Of a stretch of 64,000 bases of DNA, positions 897-22,340 are shown one piece after another. The notes beneath the pieces were generated by a model that saw nothing but the letters and a program-made list of their open reading frames with translations, had not been told where the DNA came from and did not search any database. The DNA is from Fibrisoma limi BUZ 3. Lineage in GTDB: Bacteria; Bacteroidota; Bacteroidia; Cytophagales; Spirosomataceae. The stretch spans positions 496,001-560,000 of the forward strand of contig NZ_CAIT01000010.1 of assembly GCF_000296815.2 (NCBI RefSeq), given 5' to 3'. The translations under genes were made by a program, and so were the position numbers. Every line of letters begins with the position of its first letter. The first letter of the stretch is position 1.

Positions 897-1784
897 TTAC
901 CGAAGCTCAAAGTGTAAGGTTACCGAACCGCCGAGTTCAATCTGGTCGCCGTGCTGCAACGGATAACTCATACCCGCAATATCGGCCCGTTCCATGCGGT
1001 CGTCGGGATGGAAAATCTTGGTTTTGTTGCCACTGGCCGGCAGTCCACCGGCATCGACGAGCAGGGCATATTGACGCTGGGCCATGTTGTAGCGGATCGT
1101 TGCGTGAGCCCGGCTGACGGCTCCATTCCCGGCTCCTTTTTCTGGGTCAAAACCGGGATCGTTGTCGTTCAGAATAACAATGTCGTTGGTCCGGACACGG
1201 CCTGACGAGGTCTGGGTTGTTCGGCCGCGGCCAATGCAGAAAGTGGTTTGCTGGGTTGGGTCAAGCAAGTATTCCGTTTGCTCGGTCTGCCCGGCCACCG
1301 TGACGAGTCGGGCCAGTTGGGGAGGGCCATCCGGCTTCGAACCGTCCAGAACGATCAGCCCCAGATTGCCTTCCCGATACGTACAGTCGGGAAGCTCGCC
1401 CTGGTAAAATTCAGACTCAAATCGCCAGTTTTTGGATAAGCTGATGTAGTTATCGGCCAGATGGCGGTTAAGTTCGGTCTGAAACTTACCGGGTTGATTT
1501 GTTCGCAGCGCTACCCGGTACGATTCTTCTTCTTCCGGGGATGAACAGGCAATGCAAAGGCGCAAGCCAACCGGAGCCGCACCGGGTTCGTTCTGATAGG
1601 GGCGTAGCTTATCGACAATAAACCGGACTACCTGGTCACGGCGCTGGGCAGCTGGAGGTAGTCCGGAAGGCGCTGGTTTAGGCGAAGGGAGGGTTCCTTC
1701 CGTATCGTTCGGTTGGTCGGTTGGCTGGTCGACTCGCGACGGTGTGAGGCCGAATAGGGTTTTGAGGGTGTCGATAAAGCTCAT
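897..1784 (-). CDS. FHA-domain protein, last gene of the kinase/cell-wall operon
   Basis: A cytoplasmic phosphothreonine-binding adaptor is the likely role. The 295 residues have no signal peptide or membrane segment. A Pro-rich linker (about 18-48) leads to an alpha/beta region (about 50-160), then a C-terminal FHA domain (about 180-295). The domain shows the key binding signature: Gly-Arg at 185-186 (CIGRG) and Ser-Arg-x-x-His at 224-228 (AVSRAHATI), and ends in the usual LQHGDQIELGG strand. The middle region (LRLCIACSSPEEEESYR) loosely recalls DUF3662 of actinobacterial FhaA; this is an impression. It starts 11 bp after the SEDS-PBP gene, so the two are almost certainly co-transcribed. A reasonable role is docking to phosphorylated kinases or the fusion protein. 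Confidence 0.88.
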   Translation of the reverse strand: MSFIDTLKTLFGLTPSRVDQPTDQPNDTEGTLPSPKPAPSGLPPAAQRRDQVVRFIVDKLRPYQNEPGAAPVGLRLCIACSSPEEEESYRVALRTNQPGKFQTELNRHLADNYISLSKNWRFESEFYQGELPDCTYREGNLGLIVLDGSKPDGPPQLARLVTVAGQTEQTEYLLDPTQQTTFCIGRGRTTQTSSGRVRTNDIVILNDNDPGFDPEKGAGNGAVSRAHATIRYNMAQRQYALLVDAGGLPASGNKTKIFHPDDRMERADIAGMSYPLQHGDQIELGGSVTLHFELR

Positions 1785-1795
1785 GGCTGAGTGGA

Positions 1796-4700
1796 TTAGA
1801 AGCTGCCTAAATAACCTTGCTGTTTGAGGATTGGTGCAACGACGGCATTGGCCAGTTGGACGGCCTGAGCTGATGATTCGCCCAGTTCAATCCGTACGCA
1901 GGTTACCGTGTGCGACCGGCCTTCGGGTGTTGGGGCAAAAAAGACGTACCAGCCATCGTTTTGCTGTTCGCCCAATACAATCCGTTCGGGCGTTCCGGTT
2001 TTTCCGGCGACCCGGGCCACACTGATCTTACTGCGGCCACCGGCGTTCGACTGCTCGATCATAAACTCACGTAACTGCTCCGCATACTCCGGCTGTCGGG
2101 CCAGGCGCTGCCCGGTGGGTACAGGTTGGGCTTTGCCGGCCCGGCTCAATACATACCGCGAGGGCTGCATGACGCCGTTGTTGGCAATGGCCCCCGCCAT
2201 GCGCGCGATGGACGCCGGTGTCGACGACAGTTGGCCCTGCCCCCAGGCTAAACCCGAAAACTCACTACGGTAGCGCCGGGGGTACCGATCGCTCAAGTAT
2301 AACTTCCGCCGAACCACGAATGATGAGTCCTGCCAGTGTTCCAGTATTCGGTCGCGTTCCGGTTTTGTATGGGTATTCGAAAACGAGTAGCCCCCCACAA
2401 AATCGATGTTCATGCCCGTTGCCAGATATAGATCGGCCAGCTCGTTGTCCAGTTGGTTGTCGTTGGCCGCCCGGATAAAATACACGTTGCTGGACCGGAC
2501 GATGGCTTTTCGCATGTCGACGGACTCGCCACAGGGCTCTGATTCACGGGTGCCACGCCGGATAATCTCCTGACACGAAATAGGATAGCTCAGCGACGAT
2601 GCCCGTTCTCCGAGCTTGTTGAAGGCCGCCATTGCCGTTAGAATCTTAATGGTCGAACCGGGAGCCGTCGGGTACGTCATACCCAGGTCTCGCTCCGTAA
2701 CCAGGTACGGGAGCTTTAACCGGTCGCGGTCGGCCAAGAGCATGACTTCGGGCGTTTTTAGGTTTGGGAGCGGGTGCAGCGCCGACGCCAGTACGTCGCC
2801 CGAGGCTGCGTCCAGCACCACAACCGACAGGCGTTTATCCCGAAAATCAGACTGCGCCAGAGCCTGTTGCAAGGCCACCTGGAGCTGTGCATCCACACTC
2901 AGGGTGAGATCCCGATTCTGAGCTTTACGTCGTTCAACCTCCCGGCTGTCGATACCGGCTCGCAGGGCCGGAGCCAGTTCACTGTAATCGTATACCGACA
3001 ACGTACGGGTTTGCTGTACAGACGGACTAAACCGGTCGGCCCGGTAGTCGGTCGCGACTAGTTCGCTTTTTCGAGGTCGGCTGTTGAATCCGCGCAGTTC
3101 ACTGAGGTGCGTTGCTTCGGCGTAGTAGCCGTTGCTCTGCCCCCAGAATAGTTGCGTGTTCAAGTCACCAACCCAGAAAAACAACTGATCGCCGAAGGGA
3201 TAGTATCGCTGTAATCGCTTCCGGGTGAGTGCATTTATTTGCTGCGGATTGAGGCCGCTTTGTTGAAGTCGGGTGAGTTGCCGGCTAACGGTTTCGGGGG
3301 AACTGGCCGCAACAACCACGCCTTTTCGGTCGTAGATAGTACCGGCAGCTATGGCCCGTGTCAGTCGTTCGATGCGGGGATTGTAGCTGTACACCGGATC
3401 GCCGTTGCGGGTTACGACCCGGGCCGGCCGGACAATGTATTCATCGCCAGACCAGCCGACAACAGGAAGCAATCGCCCGATGAGGATCAGAACTCCTATC
3501 AGAAAGCCCGAAATTCCGGCCATCAGGACGGTATCATAGTGCGTTTCGAGGTACTCGCGCTGCGTAACCTCCCCCGGTCGGTGCGCTACGCTGAAGACCG
3601 CACCCATTGCCGTCAGGTTGATAATGAGCGATATTTTCCCGTAACTCAGAAATGGCACGCTGATACCCGTGAGCGGGAGGAGACCGATTGAACCGCCCGC
3701 AATGATCAGAAATTGAACGCCGGTAGCGATGGCGATGCCGGTCACCAGGAAAAAACTAAACGGCTGACCAGCCCGGCGAGCATGGAGGAATGTTCGGTGG
3801 AGCAGAATGCCCATCAGCAGAAACACCGACGCCAGGCCCGCTCCCCCGAGTTCTTCACCCAGACTAGGCAGAATCATGTCCGTGTGAGCGGCCGGCATAG
3901 CGTTGGCAAAGCCTTTGCCCAGCCCTTGCCCGAACCAGCCCCCCGACGATAGTGTCCAGAAACTATGCGCCAGGTGATCACCACCGTACACATCGTTGTT
4001 CCACGGGCTAAGCCACATCGCCTTCCGGCCAGCCAGGCGGTCGCCGACAAACGGCAACAGGTCGCCAAACGCAAAAGCAGCCATGACCAGCAGCAGAATG
4101 ATCGGCGCTTCGACCAGTAAGGCGACCCAGCCGATTCCGGTTTGCGACCGGGCATCGCCCCGCCAGAACATGGAGCCAATGACAGCGATCAGGCTGACGA
4201 GCGTCGCCAGCCAGCCGGGCAGCAACCATAGGGCCACTCCGTAGCCAACGCCCGTCGCCAGGGTCAACAACAGATTCCCCCGGGCAATGCTGTAGAACAG
4301 CAGGAACGTAAAGCAGACGACCAGTGCGGGGCCCATATCGCCGAGCAGCAGGTACAGCAGCATCAGAAAAACCGCTCCGGCCAGGGCGCCTAAACTGACC
4401 CTGAACCGCCAGCGCAGGTCAGGCAACTGCCGGATGTGTTGTTCATTGGCGGCAAAGAAGCCTGCGAAGAAGAGCAGCAGCAGGTACTTGGTGATTTCGC
4501 TCGGTTGGAACGTAAGGCCGAGGAAGGATAAGTTAACCCGTACCCCGCTGCCCTCCGGACCCGAGCCGACAAGGAGCGTCAGGGTAGCAAGCCCAATGGC
4601 GAGGACCAGCCACGTCCAGCCGGATAGCCGCACTGAGGCCCGATTGCGGAACGTAAACAGCCAGTCATATTGCCAGCGCGTATAGAACCGCCCTACGTTC

Positions 4701-5773
4701 AGTTGGGATACAACAACCATACCCACCAGCCCCAGAACGAGGCCCTGCAGGGTTTGTCCGGCAAACAGCGTATCCTGCAACGGGTCCTGAATAGCCAGCA
4801 GCGTCAGGACGGACAAGCCGGTCAGCAGCATCAGGACCGCCAGCAGCAGCGGGTCGGGCTGAAACCTGCGTAATCCCCAGAAACTGTAGACCGCCCAGAA
4901 TGATCCCAGAAATAACACCACAATACCCCAGAAGAGCCAGGTGAACGAGGCTGGGGTACGGACAGTAAACGCATGGTCGGTTTTGAGTTGGCTGTACACG
5001 ACCGAACCGATCAGGCGTAGCCGGTGCGGTCGCGCTTCAAAGGTGTATGTCTGATTGCTGGACAGGCGGCTTGTGCCTTTTCGGCTGCCAAATTCCAATC
5101 CAGGTTTAAGCGGTACTACACTATAGGCCGCGTCTTCTTTCAGGCCGGAGAAGGTAAACTGACCATTAGCATCCGTACGGGCGTATACGTATCGGTCGGG
5201 GAGGGTATCGGGGCGGGCGGTGGCCGGGTGGCGCTTGAGTTGCACCAATACCCCATCCAGCGGCTGCTCGTCCCGCATAACCTGCCCCGAAATAGCTACC
5301 GTTCCACTGCCTACCCGCACCGTTGCCGCATACGGCCTGGGGTTGTTCAGTTCCCGCCGGTACAAGGTCGAGTCGAAGCCCATTTGCTGCCGCGACAACC
5401 GAAGCCGGTTCTGAAAATCGTCGCCCCCGATTGCACTGCGCCACGCTACCGGAGCCAGTACCGCAAATGCCCGTTTGTTGATACTACCGAGGTTATCGAG
5501 CGAACCATTCTGCGCCAGCTTAGCTGGTAACGAGTCAGCCACAAGTTTTGCGTCGCGGGAGTCGGTGTAGTAGTTACCCGCTGTAAGCAGGCGCTGGATG
5601 GCGGCAGACCGAACGCCGGGTTCGAGGTTCAGTGCCTGCCCAGTGGCGTATGCCTCCCGAGCCTGGTTGAGGATGGGTAATAGATTAATGTATAACCGTC
5701 CGAAGAGCAGCAGCAACACCAGCGATGTGCCGAGCAGATACAGACGGGCAGGCGAAATGGAAGCAGTGGGCAT
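1796..5773 (-). CDS. SEDS (FtsW/RodA-type) glycan polymerase fused to a class B penicillin-binding protein
   Basis: A single 1325-residue inner-membrane protein that should both polymerise and cross-link peptidoglycan. Order: one membrane segment (about 11-33); a periplasmic region with a carboxypeptidase-regulatory/CnaB-like beta domain (about 155-245); a multi-pass SEDS domain (about 275-735) with QGLG (616-619), HTDMILPSLGEELG (about 630-643, D632 matching the catalytic Asp of RodA/FtsW) and PLTGISVPFLSYG (700-712); another membrane segment (about 750-767); then a PBP2-like transpeptidase with S1040-T-I-K1043, S1094-S-N1096 and K1258-T-G. All catalytic motifs of both enzymes are kept. Separate SEDS and PBP proteins are normally about 400 and 600 residues, so the length fits a full fusion. 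It lies 20 bp after a kinase gene and 11 bp before an FHA gene, which suggests control by phosphorylation. No frameshift or internal stop is visible. Confidence 0.95.
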   Translation of the reverse strand: MPTASISPARLYLLGTSLVLLLLFGRLYINLLPILNQAREAYATGQALNLEPGVRSAAIQRLLTAGNYYTDSRDAKLVADSLPAKLAQNGSLDNLGSINKRAFAVLAPVAWRSAIGGDDFQNRLRLSRQQMGFDSTLYRRELNNPRPYAATVRVGSGTVAISGQVMRDEQPLDGVLVQLKRHPATARPDTLPDRYVYARTDANGQFTFSGLKEDAAYSVVPLKPGLEFGSRKGTSRLSSNQTYTFEARPHRLRLIGSVVYSQLKTDHAFTVRTPASFTWLFWGIVVLFLGSFWAVYSFWGLRRFQPDPLLLAVLMLLTGLSVLTLLAIQDPLQDTLFAGQTLQGLVLGLVGMVVVSQLNVGRFYTRWQYDWLFTFRNRASVRLSGWTWLVLAIGLATLTLLVGSGPEGSGVRVNLSFLGLTFQPSEITKYLLLLFFAGFFAANEQHIRQLPDLRWRFRVSLGALAGAVFLMLLYLLLGDMGPALVVCFTFLLFYSIARGNLLLTLATGVGYGVALWLLPGWLATLVSLIAVIGSMFWRGDARSQTGIGWVALLVEAPIILLLVMAAFAFGDLLPFVGDRLAGRKAMWLSPWNNDVYGGDHLAHSFWTLSSGGWFGQGLGKGFANAMPAAHTDMILPSLGEELGGAGLASVFLLMGILLHRTFLHARRAGQPFSFFLVTGIAIATGVQFLIIAGGSIGLLPLTGISVPFLSYGKISLIINLTAMGAVFSVAHRPGEVTQREYLETHYDTVLMAGISGFLIGVLILIGRLLPVVGWSGDEYIVRPARVVTRNGDPVYSYNPRIERLTRAIAAGTIYDRKGVVVAASSPETVSRQLTRLQQSGLNPQQINALTRKRLQRYYPFGDQLFFWVGDLNTQLFWGQSNGYYAEATHLSELRGFNSRPRKSELVATDYRADRFSPSVQQTRTLSVYDYSELAPALRAGIDSREVERRKAQNRDLTLSVDAQLQVALQQALAQSDFRDKRLSVVVLDAASGDVLASALHPLPNLKTPEVMLLADRDRLKLPYLVTERDLGMTYPTAPGSTIKILTAMAAFNKLGERASSLSYPISCQEIIRRGTRESEPCGESVDMRKAIVRSSNVYFIRAANDNQLDNELADLYLATGMNIDFVGGYSFSNTHTKPERDRILEHWQDSSFVVRRKLYLSDRYPRRYRSEFSGLAWGQGQLSSTPASIARMAGAIANNGVMQPSRYVLSRAGKAQPVPTGQRLARQPEYAEQLREFMIEQSNAGGRSKISVARVAGKTGTPERIVLGEQQNDGWYVFFAPTPEGRSHTVTCVRIELGESSAQAVQLANAVVAPILKQQGYLGSF

Positions 5774-5793: not shown

Positions 5794-7074
5794 TTAATTC
5801 TCGGTATTGGTGGAGTCAGCAACCGCCGTTGTGTCGCGGACGGACGTTGCGGTTGAATCCGGTACTAGGGCTGGTTCAGATCGTTCTTCCGTAGAATCGG
5901 CCGTTGTCGTTTCGTTGGAATACTCTTCAAAAGGGGCGGCCATCGAATCGGTAGCCATCGAATTCAGCGTATCGTCCACAATTGTCGGGGTGGAGGGTGT
6001 CGTTGATTGAGCAGGTTTTTGCCGTTTCAGGTAATAAATACCAAAGCCGATCAGCAGGCCGACCGCCAGGATGAGTGCAATCCACGCACCTGATCCGCTG
6101 GACCGGCGGGGCGGTTCATCCTCTACCATTGGTTCGGTATAGCCGGTGGGCTGTGACGCCGATACGGGTGACTCCAGCGTCTGCGCACGGGGCGGAGCCG
6201 ATGTGGGCCGGACACCCGAACGACCGGCCTGCAACTGTTCCACGCTGGCCTGTCCCAGCAGCACCGTCAGCTCATTGACATCGCTCAGCCGGTCGGTCGG
6301 GTCTTTAACAAGCATCCAGTTCACGAGCGTGTTTAAACTCGGGGGGACGGGTTGCCTGGACGGCAACGATAGCGCCGGGGGCGGGGTTCGGAGCACCTGC
6401 GTCATGAACGTAGCGATGCCGGCGCTGTCGGGCATGGCAAAAGGCACCCGGCCGACCAGGCATTCGTACAGGACCACGCCCAGCGAATAGTAGTCCGTAG
6501 CCACCCCCACACGCCGGGGATTATCGAACTGTTCGGGCGATGCATACTCGTACGTCAGCAGCGACTGGCCCGTCAGGGTGTGCGACTGTTCACGCAGCCG
6601 GGCGACGCCAAAATCGGTCAGTAGAAAATGCAATTCACCACTGGCCAGCGGGCGATATAGGATATTTTCCGGTTTGATGTCCCGGTGCACGATGCCCTCC
6701 GGATGGATAGCGTTGAACGCACTGGCCATCTGCTGACCCAATCGGATCACGGTCGGTACGTCCAGAGCCCCCTGCCGGATCAGTGACCGCAGATCACCCC
6801 CTTCGACCCACTCCATCACGATGAACGGGAGGGGCATGTCCAACTGCACTTCCCGAACCCGCACGACGTTTGGATGGCGGATACTGGTCATGATGGCTGA
6901 CTCCTGCTGAAACCGCCGGAGCGTATCGTCGTCGGTACCCAGTGTAAAATGCTTGATGGCCACCAGATCGCCGGTTGCTACGTGCCGGGCCTTCAGCACG
7001 CGAGCGTTGGAGCGACCCAGTTCGCCCAGGATCTCATAACCCGGAAAGTGCGTATTGACGCTAACGGTTGGCAT
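5794..7074 (-). CDS. Membrane Ser/Thr protein kinase (PknB/Hanks type), first of a pair by coordinate
   Basis: A 426-residue kinase with its catalytic domain in the cytoplasm. Kinase domain about 13-275: VAIKHF with K41, the alphaC Glu E58, HRDIKPEN at 130-137, DFG at 154-156, YASPEQ (APE-like) near 177-182. The glycine loop is degenerate: LGRSNARV replaces LGxGxxGxV. A Pro/Ser-rich linker leads to one membrane segment (about 330-349) and a low-complexity Ser/Thr/Asp/Glu periplasmic tail of about 75 residues with no recognisable domain. The first 220 residues are nearly the same as the neighbouring kinase, so the pair arose by duplication. It sits 14 bp after that kinase and 20 bp before the SEDS-PBP fusion, in one operon. 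Confidence 0.95.
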   Translation of the reverse strand: MPTVSVNTHFPGYEILGELGRSNARVLKARHVATGDLVAIKHFTLGTDDDTLRRFQQESAIMTSIRHPNVVRVREVQLDMPLPFIVMEWVEGGDLRSLIRQGALDVPTVIRLGQQMASAFNAIHPEGIVHRDIKPENILYRPLASGELHFLLTDFGVARLREQSHTLTGQSLLTYEYASPEQFDNPRRVGVATDYYSLGVVLYECLVGRVPFAMPDSAGIATFMTQVLRTPPPALSLPSRQPVPPSLNTLVNWMLVKDPTDRLSDVNELTVLLGQASVEQLQAGRSGVRPTSAPPRAQTLESPVSASQPTGYTEPMVEDEPPRRSSGSGAWIALILAVGLLIGFGIYYLKRQKPAQSTTPSTPTIVDDTLNSMATDSMAAPFEEYSNETTTADSTEERSEPALVPDSTATSVRDTTAVADSTNTEN

Positions 7075-7088
7075 CGGTAACGGTTGGT

Positions 7089-8696
7089 TTATAGCGTTGA
7101 GTCACCCGGTACGTCGGTTGCCGCCGAATCGATCGGAAGTACATCGGTTGGAAGGTCATACTTCAATACGCGACAGGTGATTCGGGTGCCCCGGTCGCTG
7201 TCGGGTGCCCGCTTGCTCAGTGTCGCATCCGGTCCAACGTTCATAAAAAAGATCTTTTCCGTTTTGTACGTATCCCCGTTTTCTTTGATGTATTTGACCT
7301 GTACAGCGATGGCAGGGAACGTAATATTGCTTGGATTGCTCAGTGTAATCTCGGCATCCCGGATGCCACCCAGTAATCCCGTTCGGTAGTTGGAAACGTC
7401 AACCCGAAGGTTGCGCCCGGCTGCGACGGCTTCCTGCCGTAGCTTTTCCCGGCGTTGCCGTTCTTCTGCTTCCTGCTGTAGCCGGAGCGCCACGGAGTCT
7501 ACCTCGGCCGTATTGGTTTCGTCGCCGGATGTAGTACTATCACTATCGGCTGAACCGGTGATCAGTTCACTAAGCGATGGCGGTTCTGCCCCTGGTTCGG
7601 ACGCGGAGTTACTACGCACGATGTAATACCCGCCCGCAGCAACAGCCAGTGCCAGCAGGATGAGGCCGATCCATTTGAATGAACTGCCGCTACCGGCTGA
7701 TTCTCTTGCCCGAGCACTTCGGGGGGCGTTCGGCACCTCGGCGGGTTCAGTTGGTAGCGAAGCTTTGGGTTGGGGCGCTACGTCGACCGGTTGTGTTATG
7801 ATCAGCGGAGTAGTGGGTCGGTTCGTAAACTGGCCCGTTCGGCTGGCCTGCAAGTAATCGAGTTCGGCCTGTTTCAGCAACCACGTTAACTCGTCGGCGT
7901 CGTTCAGCCGTTCGTCGGGCTTTTTTAGCAGCAGTCCCTGAATCAGATCCACAAGGCGACCGAGTGGCTGACCATTAGGGGCTACCGTCAGGGCTGGTGG
8001 AGCATCGTTCAGGACTTTATTCATGAACGTGACGATACCCGACTGATCGCCCATCTGAAACGGTACGCTGCCGTTCAGGCACTCGAACAACACCACACCA
8101 AGGGAGTAATAATCCGTGGCTACGCCTACTCCGCGTGGATCATTGAACTGCTCTGGCGACGCGTACTCGTAGGTCATCAGCGACTGACCCGTCATGGTCG
8201 TCGATTGTTCGCGCAGCCGAGCGACGCCAAAGTCGGTCAGCAGGAAGTGCAGTTCGCCACTGGGAAGCGGGCGGTACAGAATGTTTTCCGGTTTAATGTC
8301 CCGGTGAATGATGCCCTGCGGGTGTATGGCCTTAAACGCGCTGGCCATCTGCAAGCCCAGCCGGATGGTGGTTGGTACGTCCAGATGCCCGCCCGTTTTA
8401 ATAAGGTTGCGTAAACTTCCCCCCTCAATCAATTCCATGACGATATACGGCAGATCGGCCTCCAGTTGGACCTCCCGTACCTTCACGACGTTCGGGTGGT
8501 TGATGCTGGTCATAATGGCCGACTCGCGCTGAAACCGCCGGAGCGTATCGTCGTCGGTGTTGAGGGCAAAATGTTTGATGGCCACCAGATCGCCGGTGGC
8601 TATATGCCGGGCCTTGAGAATGCGGGCGTTGGAGCGCCCCAATTCGCTCAGCACTTCGTAGCCCGGAAATTGCGCATTAAATCGGATCGTTGCCAT
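7089..8696 (-). CDS. Membrane Ser/Thr protein kinase with a folded periplasmic domain
   Basis: A 535-residue paralogue of the adjacent kinase. The kinase domain (about 13-275) has K41, HRD at 131-133, DFG at 155-157, SPEQF near 180-184 and the same degenerate glycine loop (LGRSNARI). One membrane segment lies at about 341-360. Unlike its neighbour, the outer part holds a short charged helix, probably coiled coil (about 403-425, LRLQQEAEERQRREKLRQEA), then a beta-rich domain (about 428-515) with NLRVDVSNYRTG and AIAVQVKYIKENG that looks like an immunoglobulin-type fold. It could be the sensor of the pair; its ligand is unknown. The ATG shares one base with the stop codon of the phosphatase gene (TGATG), so translation is coupled. 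Confidence 0.95.
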   Translation of the reverse strand: MATIRFNAQFPGYEVLSELGRSNARILKARHIATGDLVAIKHFALNTDDDTLRRFQRESAIMTSINHPNVVKVREVQLEADLPYIVMELIEGGSLRNLIKTGGHLDVPTTIRLGLQMASAFKAIHPQGIIHRDIKPENILYRPLPSGELHFLLTDFGVARLREQSTTMTGQSLMTYEYASPEQFNDPRGVGVATDYYSLGVVLFECLNGSVPFQMGDQSGIVTFMNKVLNDAPPALTVAPNGQPLGRLVDLIQGLLLKKPDERLNDADELTWLLKQAELDYLQASRTGQFTNRPTTPLIITQPVDVAPQPKASLPTEPAEVPNAPRSARARESAGSGSSFKWIGLILLALAVAAGGYYIVRSNSASEPGAEPPSLSELITGSADSDSTTSGDETNTAEVDSVALRLQQEAEERQRREKLRQEAVAAGRNLRVDVSNYRTGLLGGIRDAEITLSNPSNITFPAIAVQVKYIKENGDTYKTEKIFFMNVGPDATLSKRAPDSDRGTRITCRVLKYDLPTDVLPIDSAATDVPGDSTL

Positions 8697-10338: not shown

Positions 10339-11358
10339 TTACCGGTTGCTTTGAAAATTGAGCGTTACCATACTGTTGAGCAGAATCTGCGCTTTGTCCG
10401 GCAACTCATACCAGACAGGGTTGGCGGGTTCGCTTTTGGGAATCAACTGCTCATTCACGCGGGTTTCGTTGCGGCTAAACGATGTGATCTGGAATGATCC
10501 GGTCGACTCGTTAAACCGAATCCGGGCGTGCGGATTGGATACGTAGGCCGACTCAACCAGCAGGTAGTTGGGAAAATGCTGATTTTCGGGTTCTTTTCGG
10601 GCGATGACGATCTCCCGGTCGCGCATGGCGTAGGTATATTCCCGGCTGGTTTCGGCAATGTAGTAGTCGAGCTGCGCCAGCCCTTCGTTGAGGCTGCGTG
10701 GCAGGCTGGAGGGGTTCGCTTTCGTTACGCCGGCTCCTACCACCGGTGCCCGACCGGGTGAGGCTGGGGGCGGTGGGGTGCCGAAATTGAATTTGACCAC
10801 GAAAGCGCCCGGTTCGCGGAAGTCGATGTGCTGGAAGGCATTCAGGTCAACATCCACTTTTTCGTAGCGGTTGGTTTGCTTAACCCGGCGGGTTACGTTC
10901 ACTTTGTCAGCCGGTGCCTGCGGTTGAGCCGTTCCGGCCAAAATACCGGTCAGCGCACCAATCACATGAATATCAGTCACGTTGACCGGTTCACCGCCAA
11001 ATTCCCGCCCGGAACCAAACTTGAAGTACCAGCTCGACGCGACCGGCGACACCTGTTCGTACTGGCTTCGGTGCGATTCAATAACCGTATTGAACGCCCG
11101 AACGGCCTCGTTGACGATCACCGGAAAGGCATTCATCCGCTCTTCGTACGTGTCGGGGTGCAAAATGATCAGAAAGTGGGCGTTGAACAGCATACTCGAC
11201 CCAACCGACTCCCGACCAATAGAATCCTCAAAGGAGGCTACTAATTCGTCCAGAATACGTTTGTTGCTGACGGAAGGTGCCGCTGCCGCTTCATGATGGC
11301 TGGGCGGAATGATCAGGCTGCTTAGTTTACCGAGCCAGCCGCCGGATTGATTGGCCAT
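10339..11358 (-). CDS. FhaA-like protein with a C-terminal FHA-type domain
   Basis: A 339-residue cytoplasmic protein, the first gene of the kinase/cell-wall operon. The C-terminal part (about 228-339) follows the FHA pattern: IVIARKEP, YLLVESAYVSNPHARIRF, a turn with SRNETRVNEQLI, then the last strands. The Arg of the GR pair is kept (IAR, with Ala for Gly), but SR is SN, so phosphothreonine binding may be weakened. The N-terminal part (about 33-130; FNAHFLIILHPDTYEERMNAF) resembles in layout the DUF3662 domain of FhaA; I cannot confirm this. The frame is open to 11484, but that start would lie inside the terminator of the upstream gene, so ATG 11358 (MANQSGGWLG) is preferred. The 27-residue ORF follows after 4 bases. 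Confidence 0.72.
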   Translation of the reverse strand: MANQSGGWLGKLSSLIIPPSHHEAAAAPSVSNKRILDELVASFEDSIGRESVGSSMLFNAHFLIILHPDTYEERMNAFPVIVNEAVRAFNTVIESHRSQYEQVSPVASSWYFKFGSGREFGGEPVNVTDIHVIGALTGILAGTAQPQAPADKVNVTRRVKQTNRYEKVDVDLNAFQHIDFREPGAFVVKFNFGTPPPPASPGRAPVVGAGVTKANPSSLPRSLNEGLAQLDYYIAETSREYTYAMRDREIVIARKEPENQHFPNYLLVESAYVSNPHARIRFNESTGSFQITSFSRNETRVNEQLIPKSEPANPVWYELPDKAQILLNSMVTLNFQSNR

Positions 11359-11463
11359 GTGCAGTCGTTTTGTGAGGATAACACCCCTATAAACGATGCT
11401 GCCGTAAATTTCTTTTGAGTGGTCGTCGGCTTTTAGGGAGAGGTAGAGGGATAAAACGCAAAA

Positions 11464-11492
11464 CGGGCGATGGAGGTAGCTCACATCGCCCG
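11464..11492 (-). terminator. Hairpin terminator after the gluconate dehydrogenase subunit 3 gene
   Basis: On the minus strand, CGGGCGAT (11485-11492) pairs perfectly with ATCGCCCG (11464-11471) and is followed by a T-rich run (TTTTGCGTTTTA). It starts 11 bases after the stop codon at 11504 and separates this gene from the kinase/cell-wall operon. Confidence 0.7.
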
Positions 11493-12249: not shown

Positions 12250-14001
12250 TTAAATATTCTTCTGTTTAACCTGTTCGATGAGGTACTCTGATGTGCGCAT
12301 GGATGAGGCCAGGATCGTCCACGTAACGTTCTTGTCGCCTTGGGAAACAAACGGCGCAGCATCCACCACAAACAGGTTCTTGACATCGTGAGCCTGCTGA
12401 AACTTGTTCAGTGCCGACTTGCTGGGGTCGTTACCCATCCGAACCGTACCGACTTCGTGGATGATCCGGCCGGGGGCTGCCAGACCGTAATTCTGTTCCG
12501 GCCCCGGTTTATTCCCAAGCGGAATACCACCCATCGCGTGGATGATCTCCTCAAACGTGTCCTGCATGTGTTTGGCCTGCCTGATCTCGTGGTCCGACCA
12601 TTTGTAGTGGAATCGCAGGGTCGGTATGCCGTACTTATCTACGCCATTCGGGTCAATTTCGCAGTAATTGCTTTCCAGCGGTACGGGTTCGCCCCGCCCC
12701 GACATGCCGATATAGGCACCATAGAACCGACGCATATCATCTTTCAGACTGGCACCGTAGCCACCGCCGGGCTTTGTCTTGCCATCACGACCGGGAATCC
12801 GGCCATTCAGGTTTTCGACGCCCCCGCCGAAGCCGTATCCGGGCATTCCCATACCGCCACCGTACTCAATGTGGTAACCGCGCGGGAAGTCCAGTTTCTT
12901 GTTGTCGAGCCACCAGGGCGTGAATACGTGCATGCCCCCAACGCCATCCTCGTTATACCGCTTACGATCCATCAGCGCGGGAATAAACGCCGACCGGCCG
13001 GCTCCCGTTGAATCGTTCAGGTACTTACCGATGACACCGCTGGAGTTCGCCAGACCGTTGGGGAAACGAGCGGATTTGGAGTTGAGCAGTAACCGGGCTG
13101 ATTCGCAGGTGCTGGCCCCGAGAATTACCGTTTTGGCTCTTACCGTAACCTCTTGTAATGTCGTGGTATCTACGTAGGAGACGCCGGTGGCAAGGCCCGT
13201 ACGCTGATCGGTCAGTACCTCGCGGACCATGGCGTGATTCTGGAGCGTCAGGTTGCCGGTCTTAACCGCCGGAATCACCAGCACCGACGATGACGAAAAG
13301 TCGGCATAAGCCTGGCAGCCCCTGTTACACTGGTGGCAGTAAAAACACTGACCCCGCTCTTTGTTGATGGGCTGGGTCAGAATGGACAACCGCGACGGAA
13401 CGACCGGTACCCCAATACTCTTGCCCGCTTTCTGAAGCATCAGTTCGTGCAGACGGGGTTTTGGTGGAGGCAGGAAGTAGCCGTCCGGCTCGTTGGGGAA
13501 ATCAGGCAGGTTGGTACCGAAGACACCGATCAGCCGGTCGGTTTTGTCGTAGAACGGCTTAAGATCTTCGTAACCGATCGGCCAGTCATCGCCCACGCCC
13601 GTCAGGGATTTACGGCGAAAATCGTCGGGACCGAACCGGAGCGAAATCCGCCCCCAGTGGTTAGTCCGTCCGCCCAGCATCCGCGACCGGAACCAGTGGA
13701 ATTCGGTGCCCGGTTTGGATGAGTACGGTTCGCCTTCGATGTCCCAGCCACCCCAGGCAGCATCGAAATCACCGCCTGAGCGGAACGGAGTGCTTGCTCC
13801 GCGCCGGGGCGACTCATACGGCCACTTTAGCTGGGTTATGTACTTAGGATCGGCAGGGTCGTAATAGCCCCCGGCTTCGAGCATTAATACTTTGGCGCCG
13901 GCTTTGGTTAGGATGTAGGCGGCCATGCCGCCCCCGGCTCCCGAACCGACGATTACGGCGTCGTAAACCGTCGGTGCTTTTGTAATGTGAAATTGGTCCA
14001 T
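12250..14001 (-). CDS. GMC-family FAD oxidoreductase (gluconate 2-dehydrogenase large-subunit type)
   Basis: The 583-residue catalytic flavoprotein partner of the small subunit. The N-terminal dinucleotide-binding fold (about 15-43) reads [20 protein letters not shown] with the acidic end LMLEAGG. A FAD-contact region, [11 protein letters not shown], lies near 109-119. A Cys cluster ([11 protein letters not shown], about 224-234) matches the cysteine-rich insertion of this subgroup. The C-terminus has HEVGTVRMG and [17 protein letters not shown], where GMC enzymes keep the active-site His and Asn. There is no signal peptide; export with the Tat-bearing partner is the likely route. Similar enzymes oxidise gluconate, 2-ketogluconate or sugar alcohols, and the substrate here is not certain. 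Confidence 0.9.
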
Positions 14002-20120: not shown

Positions 20121-22340
20121 TTAAGGCAAAGCAAAGGCAACGTAGGAACCGCCCGGCTTTAACCCGTAACGGGTGCCACCGGCGGCAATGGCAACGTACT
20201 GCCTGCCGTTCACGCTATACGTTATGGGGGTGGCAAAGCCGCCGGCGGGCAGCCTGTATTCCCACACTACGTTTCCGGTCTTTTTGTCGAACGCACGCAG
20301 TTTCTCATCGTACGTAGCGGCAATGAACACCAGGCCACCTGCCGTCACGAGTGGGCCACCGTGGTTTTCGGTGCCCGTCTGCTTGAGCCCTTTCCTGACA
20401 AGCTCCGGATATTCGCCGAGCGGCACCTGCCAGACGTACTCGCCCGTGTTGAGATCAATGGCGTTCAGCGTACCCCAGGGCGGCTTAATGGCCGGGTAGT
20501 TGTCCTGATCCCGAAACTGGGTGTTGCCGTTGTTCAGATACGGTGACTGGTACGGAAAGTCATTGCCCTGGGCTCGGGGCGCTGCCACGACGGATGAATG
20601 AATATCAGATGAAGCCGAAAGGGCTGCGTTGGGTTTCGCGGTCGGGTTCAGCAGAAAGTCCACGATCGCTTCGCGGTCTTGCTGGGCAATGTGCTGAAAC
20701 GAGGGCATTCGACCGCGTCCGGTGGTCAGCAGGGCGTGAATCTGCTTTTTATCAAGTCGCTTTCCTACGTTGGTCAGGTCGGGATACGCCTGCTGGCTTT
20801 TGGCAAGGGCCTTGTCCTGACCTGGAACGGCGTGACAAACGCCACAATTGGTATTGAACAGACTAGCCCCCCGTGTCAGCGCTACCCCTTCCGACTGCTG
20901 CGTATTGCGCATCTTCAGCCACCAGAGCATGTTGTTGCTGTTCACGTAGAAAATTCCGTTCGGGTCGGCGGCCGTACCGCCCCATTCAGCGCCCCCGCCC
21001 ATTCCGAAAACGAGTGATCCTTCTTCACTGGGGGGGAGGTATTTGTTGCCCTGCCGACTGTTTCGGAAACGCTCCAGTACGTAGGCCCGGGCTTCCGGTG
21101 TACGGTCGGTGATGGTTGCTTCGGTAAGTTCCTGCATACAGAACGGTGCGGGCTTGGTCGGTACGGGCTGCGTTGGCCACGGTTGTTCGCCCGGTAGGGC
21201 CGGGTAGTTGGGTACGGCCACTTCATTGACCGGAAACAAAGGCTTGCCCGTATCCCGGTCAAAAACGAACACGTAGCCATCCTTGGTAGCCTGCGCCACC
21301 GCTTCGACCCGACGGCCTTCGTACATCACTGTGATGAGGTTCGGCGGGCAGGGCAGATCACGGTCCCAGAGGTCGTGGTGAACCGTCTGGAAATGCCAGA
21401 TGCGCTTGCCGGTGCTGGCATCAAGGGCCAGTACGCAGTTTGCAAAGAGATTCTGACCGGCGCGGGCACCGCCGTAGAAATCAACCGATGGCGAACCGGT
21501 TCCGGCGTAGACGATGCCCCTCTTTTCGTCGACGACCATGCCCGCCCAGCAGTTGGCCCCGCCGAGTTTCCGGTACGAATCGGTCATCCAGGTTTCATAG
21601 CCGTACTCGCCCGGCAGCGGAATCGTGTGGAATACCCACGCCAGTTTACCCGTCCGGACGTTGAACGCCCGGATGTGGCCCGGTGGCGCATCGCCCCCTT
21701 CCGACACGCTCGACCCGACAATGATCAGATCGCGGTAGATAACCCCAGGGGTCGTATTGCGAATCGAGAGGCTGGCTGTTTCATGACCAAGCGTTTGGGC
21801 ATCGCCCAGCCCTTCGTGCAGATCGACAATGCCGTGGGTGCCGAAGCTTTCGATCAGCGCACCGGTTTTCGCGTTAATCGCGTACAGCGTTGGTCCCGAC
21901 GAGTAAAGAATCCGCCGGTCGTCGCCGTCGGCCCAGTACGTTACGCCCCGCAACGGATGAAAGCGGGGTTTCTTGTTCGGGTCGGCGTAGGGGTCGAATC
22001 GCCATATTTCCTTGCCCGTTGCGGCATCAATGGCGAAGAGCTTATGCCTGGGTGTGGTGCCGTACAGGACGCCGTCGACCACAATGGGTTGGCACTGAAT
22101 GTCCATTCCCCGATCGTCGGCGGACAGGTTTTTGTTTTCGCCCGTGTCGAACGTCCAGGCGGGTTGCAGCCGGGATACGTTTTCTAAATTGATCTGCGAT
22201 AGGGGGGAGTAGCGGGTACCGGCCGGATTCCCGCCGTAGGTCGGCCAGTCGGTATCGGCGGTGCTGGTTTTCTCCCAATCAGGGGTGGTGCCGGACAGCA
22301 GCCAGCTACAGAATAGCACAAGTACAGTCAGGACTCTCAT
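20121..22340 (-). CDS. PQQ-dependent aldose dehydrogenase with an internal cytochrome c domain
   Basis: A 739-residue periplasmic quinoprotein with a Sec signal (about 1-16). It oxidises sugars to lactones and passes the electrons on. The eight-bladed propeller starts at DWPTYGGNPAGTRYSPLSQIN (about 31-51), with further blade motifs LFAIDAATGKEIWRFD and VLALDASTGKRIWHFQ. HHDLWDRDLP (about 321-330) is typical of the glucose-dehydrogenase type. A class I cytochrome c is inserted at about 485-565: CGVCH at 499-503 and an axial Met at 545 (GRGRMPSF). The propeller then closes (ENHGGPLVTAGGLVFIAAT). It overlaps the epimerase-like gene upstream by 4 bases. In this cluster galactose or a relative is a reasonable substrate. 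Confidence 0.92.
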   Translation of the reverse strand: MRVLTVLVLFCSWLLSGTTPDWEKTSTADTDWPTYGGNPAGTRYSPLSQINLENVSRLQPAWTFDTGENKNLSADDRGMDIQCQPIVVDGVLYGTTPRHKLFAIDAATGKEIWRFDPYADPNKKPRFHPLRGVTYWADGDDRRILYSSGPTLYAINAKTGALIESFGTHGIVDLHEGLGDAQTLGHETASLSIRNTTPGVIYRDLIIVGSSVSEGGDAPPGHIRAFNVRTGKLAWVFHTIPLPGEYGYETWMTDSYRKLGGANCWAGMVVDEKRGIVYAGTGSPSVDFYGGARAGQNLFANCVLALDASTGKRIWHFQTVHHDLWDRDLPCPPNLITVMYEGRRVEAVAQATKDGYVFVFDRDTGKPLFPVNEVAVPNYPALPGEQPWPTQPVPTKPAPFCMQELTEATITDRTPEARAYVLERFRNSRQGNKYLPPSEEGSLVFGMGGGAEWGGTAADPNGIFYVNSNNMLWWLKMRNTQQSEGVALTRGASLFNTNCGVCHAVPGQDKALAKSQQAYPDLTNVGKRLDKKQIHALLTTGRGRMPSFQHIAQQDREAIVDFLLNPTAKPNAALSASSDIHSSVVAAPRAQGNDFPYQSPYLNNGNTQFRDQDNYPAIKPPWGTLNAIDLNTGEYVWQVPLGEYPELVRKGLKQTGTENHGGPLVTAGGLVFIAATYDEKLRAFDKKTGNVVWEYRLPAGGFATPITYSVNGRQYVAIAAGGTRYGLKPGGSYVAFALP

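Follow-up and report, generated by a model that had tools for sequence, protein, structure and literature searches.

A kinase-linked SEDS polymerase and class B penicillin-binding protein on one chain in Bacteroidota and Acidobacteriota

SEDS proteins and class B penicillin-binding proteins (PBPs) work as partners and are normally encoded by separate genes. What, then, should be made of a locus in Fibrisoma limi BUZ 3 where both seem to share one chain: is the fusion real, and how might it be used? The locus lies in a window of 64,000 nucleotides (assembly GCF_000296815.2, contig NZ_CAIT01000010.1, positions 496,001 to 560,000; coordinates below are those of the window), for which a preliminary description, made from the sequence alone, had reported a 1325-residue SEDS-PBP protein at 1796-5773. 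These coordinates are correct, and the strand, left unstated there, is minus: the minus-strand frame is open over 1325 codons and the plus-strand frame of the same stretch is full of stops. The evidence below leads us to regard this protein as probably an additional, kinase-regulated, one-chain bifunctional peptidoglycan synthase, though its activity and its control are things that we infer.

Both enzymes are recognised by Pfam well above threshold, PF01098 (FTSW_RODA_SPOVE) with 142.4 bits against a cut-off of 26.4 and PF00905 (Transpeptidase) with 89.3 bits against 22.1, and together with the single open frame this upholds the report of two enzymes on one chain. The protein runs from an N-terminal membrane anchor through periplasmic domains to the SEDS polymerase and then the class B PBP. 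The phmmer matches of the SEDS domain are FtsW/RodA chains, and its catalytic aspartate, D632, falls, to judge from model and hydropathy, in the periplasmic loop that joins the seventh and eighth transmembrane helices. The other half has the features of a class B PBP, namely SxxK, SxN and KTG motifs and a membrane helix ahead of the pedestal, and no GT51 domain is among the Pfam matches of the fusion at E 0.01. A structural model of residues 245-1325 (predicted local distance difference test, pLDDT, 80.6; predicted TM-score 0.73) contains the SEDS helices, the D632 loop and a long helix (736-772) leading into the PBP; in a Foldseek search with this core the best 50 of 927 matches are all PBP chains, headed by Pseudomonas aeruginosa PBP3 (E 6e-15, target TM-score 0.58). 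The SEDS C-terminus and the class B PBP N-terminus are both cytoplasmic, so that fusion needs a short linker only, and a short cytoplasmic linker is what model and hydropathy place between the SEDS C-terminus and the PBP membrane helix.

Could the single frame be a product of sequencing or assembly? The preliminary description had named a frameshift or joining error as grounds for abandoning its reading, and comparison with other genomes excludes it. A scan of contigs from named genomes yielded 78 related loci, 74 of which, from Bacteroidota and Acidobacteriota, are fused in one frame of more than 1000 amino acids. The remaining four are incomplete or broken, none of them at the border between SEDS and PBP: in L075 and L090 the fusion runs past the contig end, in L078, from a metagenome-assembled genome (MAG), it has two breaks, near query residues 217 and 640, and in L035 other sequence comes first and the frame opens near query residue 620, roughly 100 bases into the contig. 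In this last locus, on a Spirosoma MAG contig, positions 1-105 resemble, by eye, the tail of an insertion sequence transposase ahead of the abrupt start of the fusion, which may be an insertion or a contig artefact.

A subtler possibility is that the fusion exists at the DNA level only, one frame giving a protein that is made as, or cleaved into, two. The window does have a methionine, M751, near the border. However, in the alignment of the window with 74 other loci (75 rows) this residue is retained in 24 rows only, and an internal start at M751 is rejected on that account; moreover, in the rows displayed a short stretch joins the two domains in frame, and the incomplete or broken loci are not split there. 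We consider two separate products to be extremely unlikely.

The same alignment, whose 75 rows hold 74 different sequences (L061 and L065 are identical), bears on whether the two active sites matter. D632, S1040, K1043, S1094 and N1096 are identical throughout, and K1258 is present in 74 rows, the exception being L091, which matches the query only up to residue 1223 in that frame; the four catalytic residues singled out earlier (D632, S1040, S1094 and K1258) are where they had been placed. Identity to the window is 95% in Fibrisoma, about 65-81% in Spirosoma, Larkinella, Fibrella and Rudanella, about 40% in Pedobacter, Mucilaginibacter and Ferruginibacter and about 30% in Acidobacteriota. The ratio of non-synonymous to synonymous substitution rates (omega) was estimated separately for the four domains (N-domain, CnaB-like domain, SEDS and PBP): it is 0.02-0.12 in six Bacteroidota pairs wherever the synonymous rate (dS) is unsaturated, and 0.08-0.15 for SEDS and PBP in two Acidobacteriota pairs. 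Among all pairs, saturation affects some domains of L087-L088 and L042-L050. Higher values, 0.39-0.46, are seen for L083-L084 in the N-terminal-domain columns, where Acidobacteriota rows start upstream of the likely start and are without the beta-sandwich described below. These estimates indicate purifying selection on all four domains in the Bacteroidota pairs, and a dead enzyme is unlikely given the conserved catalytic residues and low omega.

It might still be argued that one half is non-catalytic and that the protein is a sensor or regulator, a synthase-like receptor that binds lipid II or glycan on behalf of a kinase system. The kinase genes alongside, the extra periplasmic domains and the departure of the Spirosoma-Larkinella group from the SYGGSS-type motif would all suit such a role, but the retention across two phyla of the checked catalytic residues of both enzymes would be unexpected if catalysis were dispensable, and we think this explanation very improbable.

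If the fusion is an enzyme, is it the cell's main one? The genome of the window has two other SEDS genes (a RodA gene with a PBP2-like neighbour, and one that is FtsW-like) and other transpeptidase genes, and all six further genomes searched likewise have two other SEDS genes each, one of those in genome G397 lying in pieces at contig ends. The preliminary description supposed that a fixed pair could work without partner exchange; with these other SEDS and transpeptidase genes in the same genome, the partnership may not be exclusive. Since other SEDS genes are found in all seven genomes, the fusion would be an additional synthase. Nor is it FtsW, RodA, SpoVE or PBP2 by name, because it misses the NCBIfam cut-offs by far: it scores 144.1 of the 337.5 bits needed for FtsW, 114.2 of 336.7 for RodA and 91.7 of 455 for PBP2, and is also under the cut-off for SpoVE. 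As a yardstick, the genome's own RodA reaches 346.7 against the cut-off of 336.7 and its FtsW-like gene 241.9 of 337.5; the PBP next to RodA is PBP2-like (430 of 455), and another of its PBPs scores best on SpoVD (304 of 688).

The best clue to the use of the fusion is its neighbourhood, which the preliminary description overlooked. In the window an FHA gene, a PP2C phosphatase gene, two Ser/Thr kinase genes, the fusion and a second FHA gene follow one another on one strand in an operon-like arrangement; on the NCBIfam model Stp1 the phosphatase scores 195.7 bits, under the cut-off of 230. Enough flank for a neighbourhood count was available at 63 of the 78 loci, and at 59 of these BLAST with the window genes finds PP2C, Ser/Thr kinase and FHA genes nearby on the same strand. 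The misses are L015, L084, L086 and L087, and Pfam detects FHA domains in L086 and L087. The median gap between the fusion and the next recognised gene is 6.5 bp upstream and 22 bp downstream. A sigma-70 promoter scan was uninformative, with 2 found against 5.4 expected. PF12401, the N-terminal domain of FhaA, occurs below threshold in cluster FHA proteins, L086 coming closest (22.4 bits; cut-off 25) and L087, L130 and L140 scoring lower; it was not found in L041 and is not among the matches, at E 0.01, of the window FHA protein at the head of the cluster. Directly after the fusion in two divergent Bacteroidota-phylum genomes stand Swt1-like HEPN plus FHA proteins (L127:11435-12805 and L130:11479-12753; 90.1 and 78.2 bits).

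This setting has a counterpart in the actinobacterial fhaA-fhaB-pstP-rodA-pbpA-pknA-pknB cluster, in which FHA, PP2C, SEDS, class B PBP and Ser/Thr kinase genes are likewise together, although there rodA and pbpA are separate, overlapping genes and the gene order is unlike that of the fusion cluster. In the annotated Actinomyces oris genome the order is FHA, FHA, PP2C, RodA, PBP2, kinase and PknB, with separate, overlapping synthase genes, and BLAST recovers the same unfused order in Nonomuraea and Arthrobacter. Three of the unfused rows used in our trees (L145, L146 and L147) come with the full cluster and a fourth, L114, with a PknB-like frame upstream only; in Monoglobus (L113) an FHA gene is followed by separate, overlapping SEDS and PBP genes and no further cluster gene. 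For mycobacteria and corynebacteria the operon, with PbpA as a substrate of PknB, is covered in PMC3989709.

To what extent do the fusions share a history? Our phylogenies include 25 chosen fusions, 12 from the 75 alignment rows and 13 from 15 further fusion regions. In the SEDS tree (46 rows) a branch supported at 100/100 separates all 25 from the remaining rows, and a second branch, also at 100/100, separates the 16 ordinary RodA/FtsW rows, among them the ones from fusion-bearing genomes. In the PBP tree (36 rows, with long branches) the 25 fusions form one clade (100/100) and four unfused cluster PBPs another (100/98). These topologies fit a single fusion event. Descent from the resident synthases is rejected by approximately unbiased (AU) tests, both for RodA (p-AU 9e-5 for fused SEDS with RodA-like rows; 8e-4 when E. 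coli RodA is added) and for FtsW (5e-4 for fused SEDS with FtsW-like rows). The AU test does not reject placing fused and unfused cluster PBPs together (p-AU 0.245), and on these trees descent from an actinobacterial kinase-linked pair is an attractive possibility, neither shown nor rejected.

The preliminary description had proposed searching all proteins for such chains; we mapped them within Bacteroidota and Acidobacteriota. An even draw of 395 Bacteroidota genomes gave 27 with a match at 1e-30, of which 15 have fused frames of more than 1000 amino acids and 12 have frames of at most 685; for G013 and G269 the search reports a single stop within the match, the frames nonetheless being open over 1222 and 1353 residues. 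Ten of 396 Acidobacteriota genomes matched at 1e-60, nine with frames above 1100 amino acids and one with 857 on a 3.5 kb contig, a count that is a lower bound because the profile was mostly built from Bacteroidota and the limit was strict. Matches were found in 46 of 200 genomes (7 of 36 genera) of the window's own family and in 41 of 201 genomes of the family of the Pedobacter genome G399. Judged from these sequences, the fusion is patchy in distribution but old. Two fusions occur together in the Acidobacteriota genomes G395 (L086/L135) and G396 (L083/L136), and likewise in several Bacteroidota-phylum genomes (G131, G931, G940 and G970), which points to duplication and possible specialisation.

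A search of plasmids returned 14 matching records, one of which covers most of the query. This is Spirosoma oryzicola plasmid unnamed7 (137 kb), which carries the entire FHA-PP2C-kinase-kinase-fusion-FHA cluster (L112:9378-19934) and suggests that the cluster is mobile and accessory; the record labels the fusion homologue by its SEDS half only. Two other matches were rejected as fusions: in Monoglobus SEDS and PBP are two separate genes, and a Rhodococcus plasmid match, which came from a second search, is an unfused ftsW.

A more sober account of these data is that the fusion is a third ordinary SEDS-PBP pair, joined by chance, whose part in elongation or division is redundant and whose place beside the kinase cluster is incidental. 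Its domains and catalytic residues are indeed those of ordinary pairs, and a patchy presence, seen both in the phylum-wide draw and in the window's own family, fits a dispensable gene. Against this, kinase, phosphatase and FHA genes are near the fusion at nearly all loci counted and occur around fusions of both phyla, unfused pairs occur in the same setting, and the AU tests separate the fused SEDS from resident RodA-like and FtsW-like rows alike. We therefore hold the account to be improbable, if less so than the sensor or two-product explanations.

How new is such a chain? SEDS and PBP on one chain are not categorically new, since single-ORF fusions are already in print, a mention that the preliminary description had also missed: Nygaard et al. 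2023 (PMC10449877) state that they exist, citing the Rhodococcus RHA1 genome paper. In that statement the two enzymes share one chain, as here, but the fusions are attributed to an actinomycete genome, without family, context or phylogeny. A table of PBP genes in PMC8225782 includes Slin_1280 of Spirosoma linguale as an 'FtsW/RodA/SpoVE family protein', the entry itself making no remark of fusion; from its genus and its place among the PBPs it is probably an orthologue. PMC8225782 also reports that genome editing was attempted in S. linguale without success. The literature searched, in which subscription papers were mostly outside coverage, gave no account of a two-phylum fusion family or of kinase linkage. 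Class A PBPs, like the fusion, have polymerase and cross-linker on one chain, but their polymerase is GT51 and that of the fusion SEDS, whereas the RodA-PBP2 and FtsW-FtsI complexes share its enzyme families and catalytic motifs but come from two genes and are without its extra N-terminal domains.

Engineered chains show what such an arrangement permits. According to PMC6207328, E. coli RodA and PBP2 joined in one chain show activity in vitro and, in vivo, bring back rod shape for the most part, and further engineered SEDS-PBP fusions, SpoVE-SpoVD included, are described as functional (PMC6207328, PMC10449877). The RodA-PBP2 construct of PMC10449877 has the PBP after SEDS, the same order as in the natural fusion; the two RodA-PBP2 constructs of these papers differ from it in being hand-made, with glycine-serine linkers. 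The activity of engineered fusions implies that a single chain is compatible with function.

The region ahead of the two enzymes is the least familiar part of the protein. In a model of residues 1-330 (pLDDT 90.9), two membrane helices flank a helical N-domain and, after it, a beta-sandwich (151-253). With a hidden Markov model (HMM) of the N-domain built here, 6 of 11 Acidobacteriota fusions were matched at an independent E-value below 1e-4, two of them (L084 and L086) being seeds, so the domain is detectable in members of both phyla. The sandwich corresponds to the CnaB-like domain of the preliminary description; the model bears out a beta-sandwich ahead of the two enzymes, the name less so. 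PF13620 (CarboxypepD_reg) at residues 161-228 reaches 23.1 bits, under its cut-off of 32.3, and Foldseek returns the CnaB-type pilins SpaD (1.9e-4) and SpaA (2.3e-4) with target TM-scores of at most about 0.5, intradiol dioxygenases ranking equally high. From the predicted structure, 'CnaB/transthyretin-like' is a fair label and no more. An HMM of the sandwich matched 5 of 7 further Bacteroidota-phylum fusions well and gave a 24-residue trace in L128, with no match in L130 or in any of the 11 Acidobacteriota fusions.

Taken together, these observations favour the kinase-regulated, one-chain synthase. The SEDS part would polymerise lipid II into glycan and the class B PBP transpeptidase would cross-link the new strand in the periplasm, so that the protein would act in the manner of the RodA-PBP2 and FtsW-FtsI complexes, with the ratio of its two partners fixed at 1:1, its output resembling that of a class A PBP with SEDS replacing GT51. 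The neighbouring membrane Ser/Thr kinases, the PP2C phosphatase and the two FHA proteins probably act on it through reversible phosphorylation, as a switch or by recruiting it, for which the actinobacterial RodA-PbpA/PknA-PknB system may serve as a model, and the periplasmic domains at the N-terminus probably have a part in sensing or docking.

Several observations weigh against this interpretation or its details. In close relatives of the window (the Spirosoma-Larkinella group) the SYGGSS-type SEDS motif reads SYGKIS, SYGKVS or SYGNVS; SYGGSS or SYGGTS is retained in most other Bacteroidota rows printed. A helix pair (501-538) is inserted in the SEDS domain of the window and L041 and is absent from L086 and L087, the only two Acidobacteriota rows compared; set against the ten membrane helices of a SEDS protein, L086 shows 7 plus 3 by hydropathy, and the window has the added pair. 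Because the insertion is a pair of helices the catalytic loop stays outside, but, given the altered motif and the inserted helices, the polymerase may differ in detail. In the SEDS tree four actinobacterial rows stand beside the fusions weakly (83/43; L147 is split into two frames, of which the longer was used), and the PBP tree does not recover this sisterhood. Finally, distant fusions of both phyla are found in related settings, but some of these settings, such as those of L127 and L138, are not as complete.

Table 1. Positions of the fusion gene, its domains and motifs, and the genes of its cluster, in window coordinates.
Feature	Residues	Position	Strand	Basis
Fusion gene	1325 aa	1796..5773	minus	single open frame, Pfam
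N-terminal helix with membrane anchor	8-44	5642..5752	minus	model; hydropathy peak 17-35
Periplasmic N-domain	45-150	5324..5641	minus	model, HMM
CnaB/transthyretin-like beta-sandwich	151-253	5015..5323	minus	model, Foldseek; Pfam sub-threshold
Extra membrane helix, returning chain to cytoplasm	274-301	4871..4954	minus	models, hydropathy
SEDS polymerase domain	308-731	3581..4852	minus	PF01098, phmmer, model
Helix pair inserted in SEDS domain	501-538	4160..4273	minus	alignment, model
SEDS catalytic Asp in HTDMILPS	D632	3878..3880	minus	D in 75/75 rows
SYGGSS-type motif	710-715	3629-3646	minus	
Class B PBP membrane helix	736-772	3458..3568	minus	model, hydropathy
PBP pedestal region	773-982	2828..3457	minus	invariant NPR and G..DR.G residues
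Transpeptidase domain	983-1316	1826..2827	minus	PF00905, Foldseek
SxxK motif	S1040 to K1043	2645..2656	minus	75/75 rows
SxN motif	S1094 to N1096	2486..2494	minus	75/75 rows
K-T/S-G motif	from K1258	1994..2002	minus	K in 74/75 rows
FHA-domain protein, 11 bp downstream of fusion		897..1784	minus	PF00498, 22.0 bits (cut-off 20.7)
Ser/Thr kinase 1, one membrane helix, 20 bp upstream of fusion		5794..7074	minus	PF00069, 158.5 bits
Ser/Thr kinase 2, one membrane helix and C-terminal region beyond		7089..8696	minus	PF00069, 153.6 bits
PP2C phosphatase, one membrane helix		8696..10141	minus	PF13672, 51 bits
FHA-domain protein, head of cluster		10339..11484	minus	PF00498, 23.7 bits

Elsewhere in the window, an incomplete minus-strand frame downstream of the cluster (2-811) looks by eye like a lysyl-tRNA synthetase and a frame at 12250-14001 like a GMC-type oxidoreductase; 20121-22340 encodes a pyrroloquinoline quinone-dependent dehydrogenase (PF01011, 654 bits) that includes a cytochrome c domain.

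What might the existence of this protein mean? A bolder scenario, which we offer tentatively and would not expect to hold in full, is that a kinase-linked SEDS-PBP pair fused once, long ago, and gave rise to a class of peptidoglycan synthase in its own right. Retained in Bacteroidota and Acidobacteriota, this class would be to SEDS what the class A PBPs are to GT51; its own kinase, phosphatase and FHA circuit would switch it, for work outside the elongasome and the divisome such as repairing the envelope or changing cell shape. The coupling of SEDS and PBP, and the question of whether the partners need to separate, have so far been approached with engineered fusions; a natural, long-conserved fusion would provide a ready-made 1:1 synthase for structural and kinetic work. 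Its steady linkage to Ser/Thr kinase, phosphatase and FHA genes would also make phospho-control of a SEDS-PBP unit testable outside Actinobacteria.

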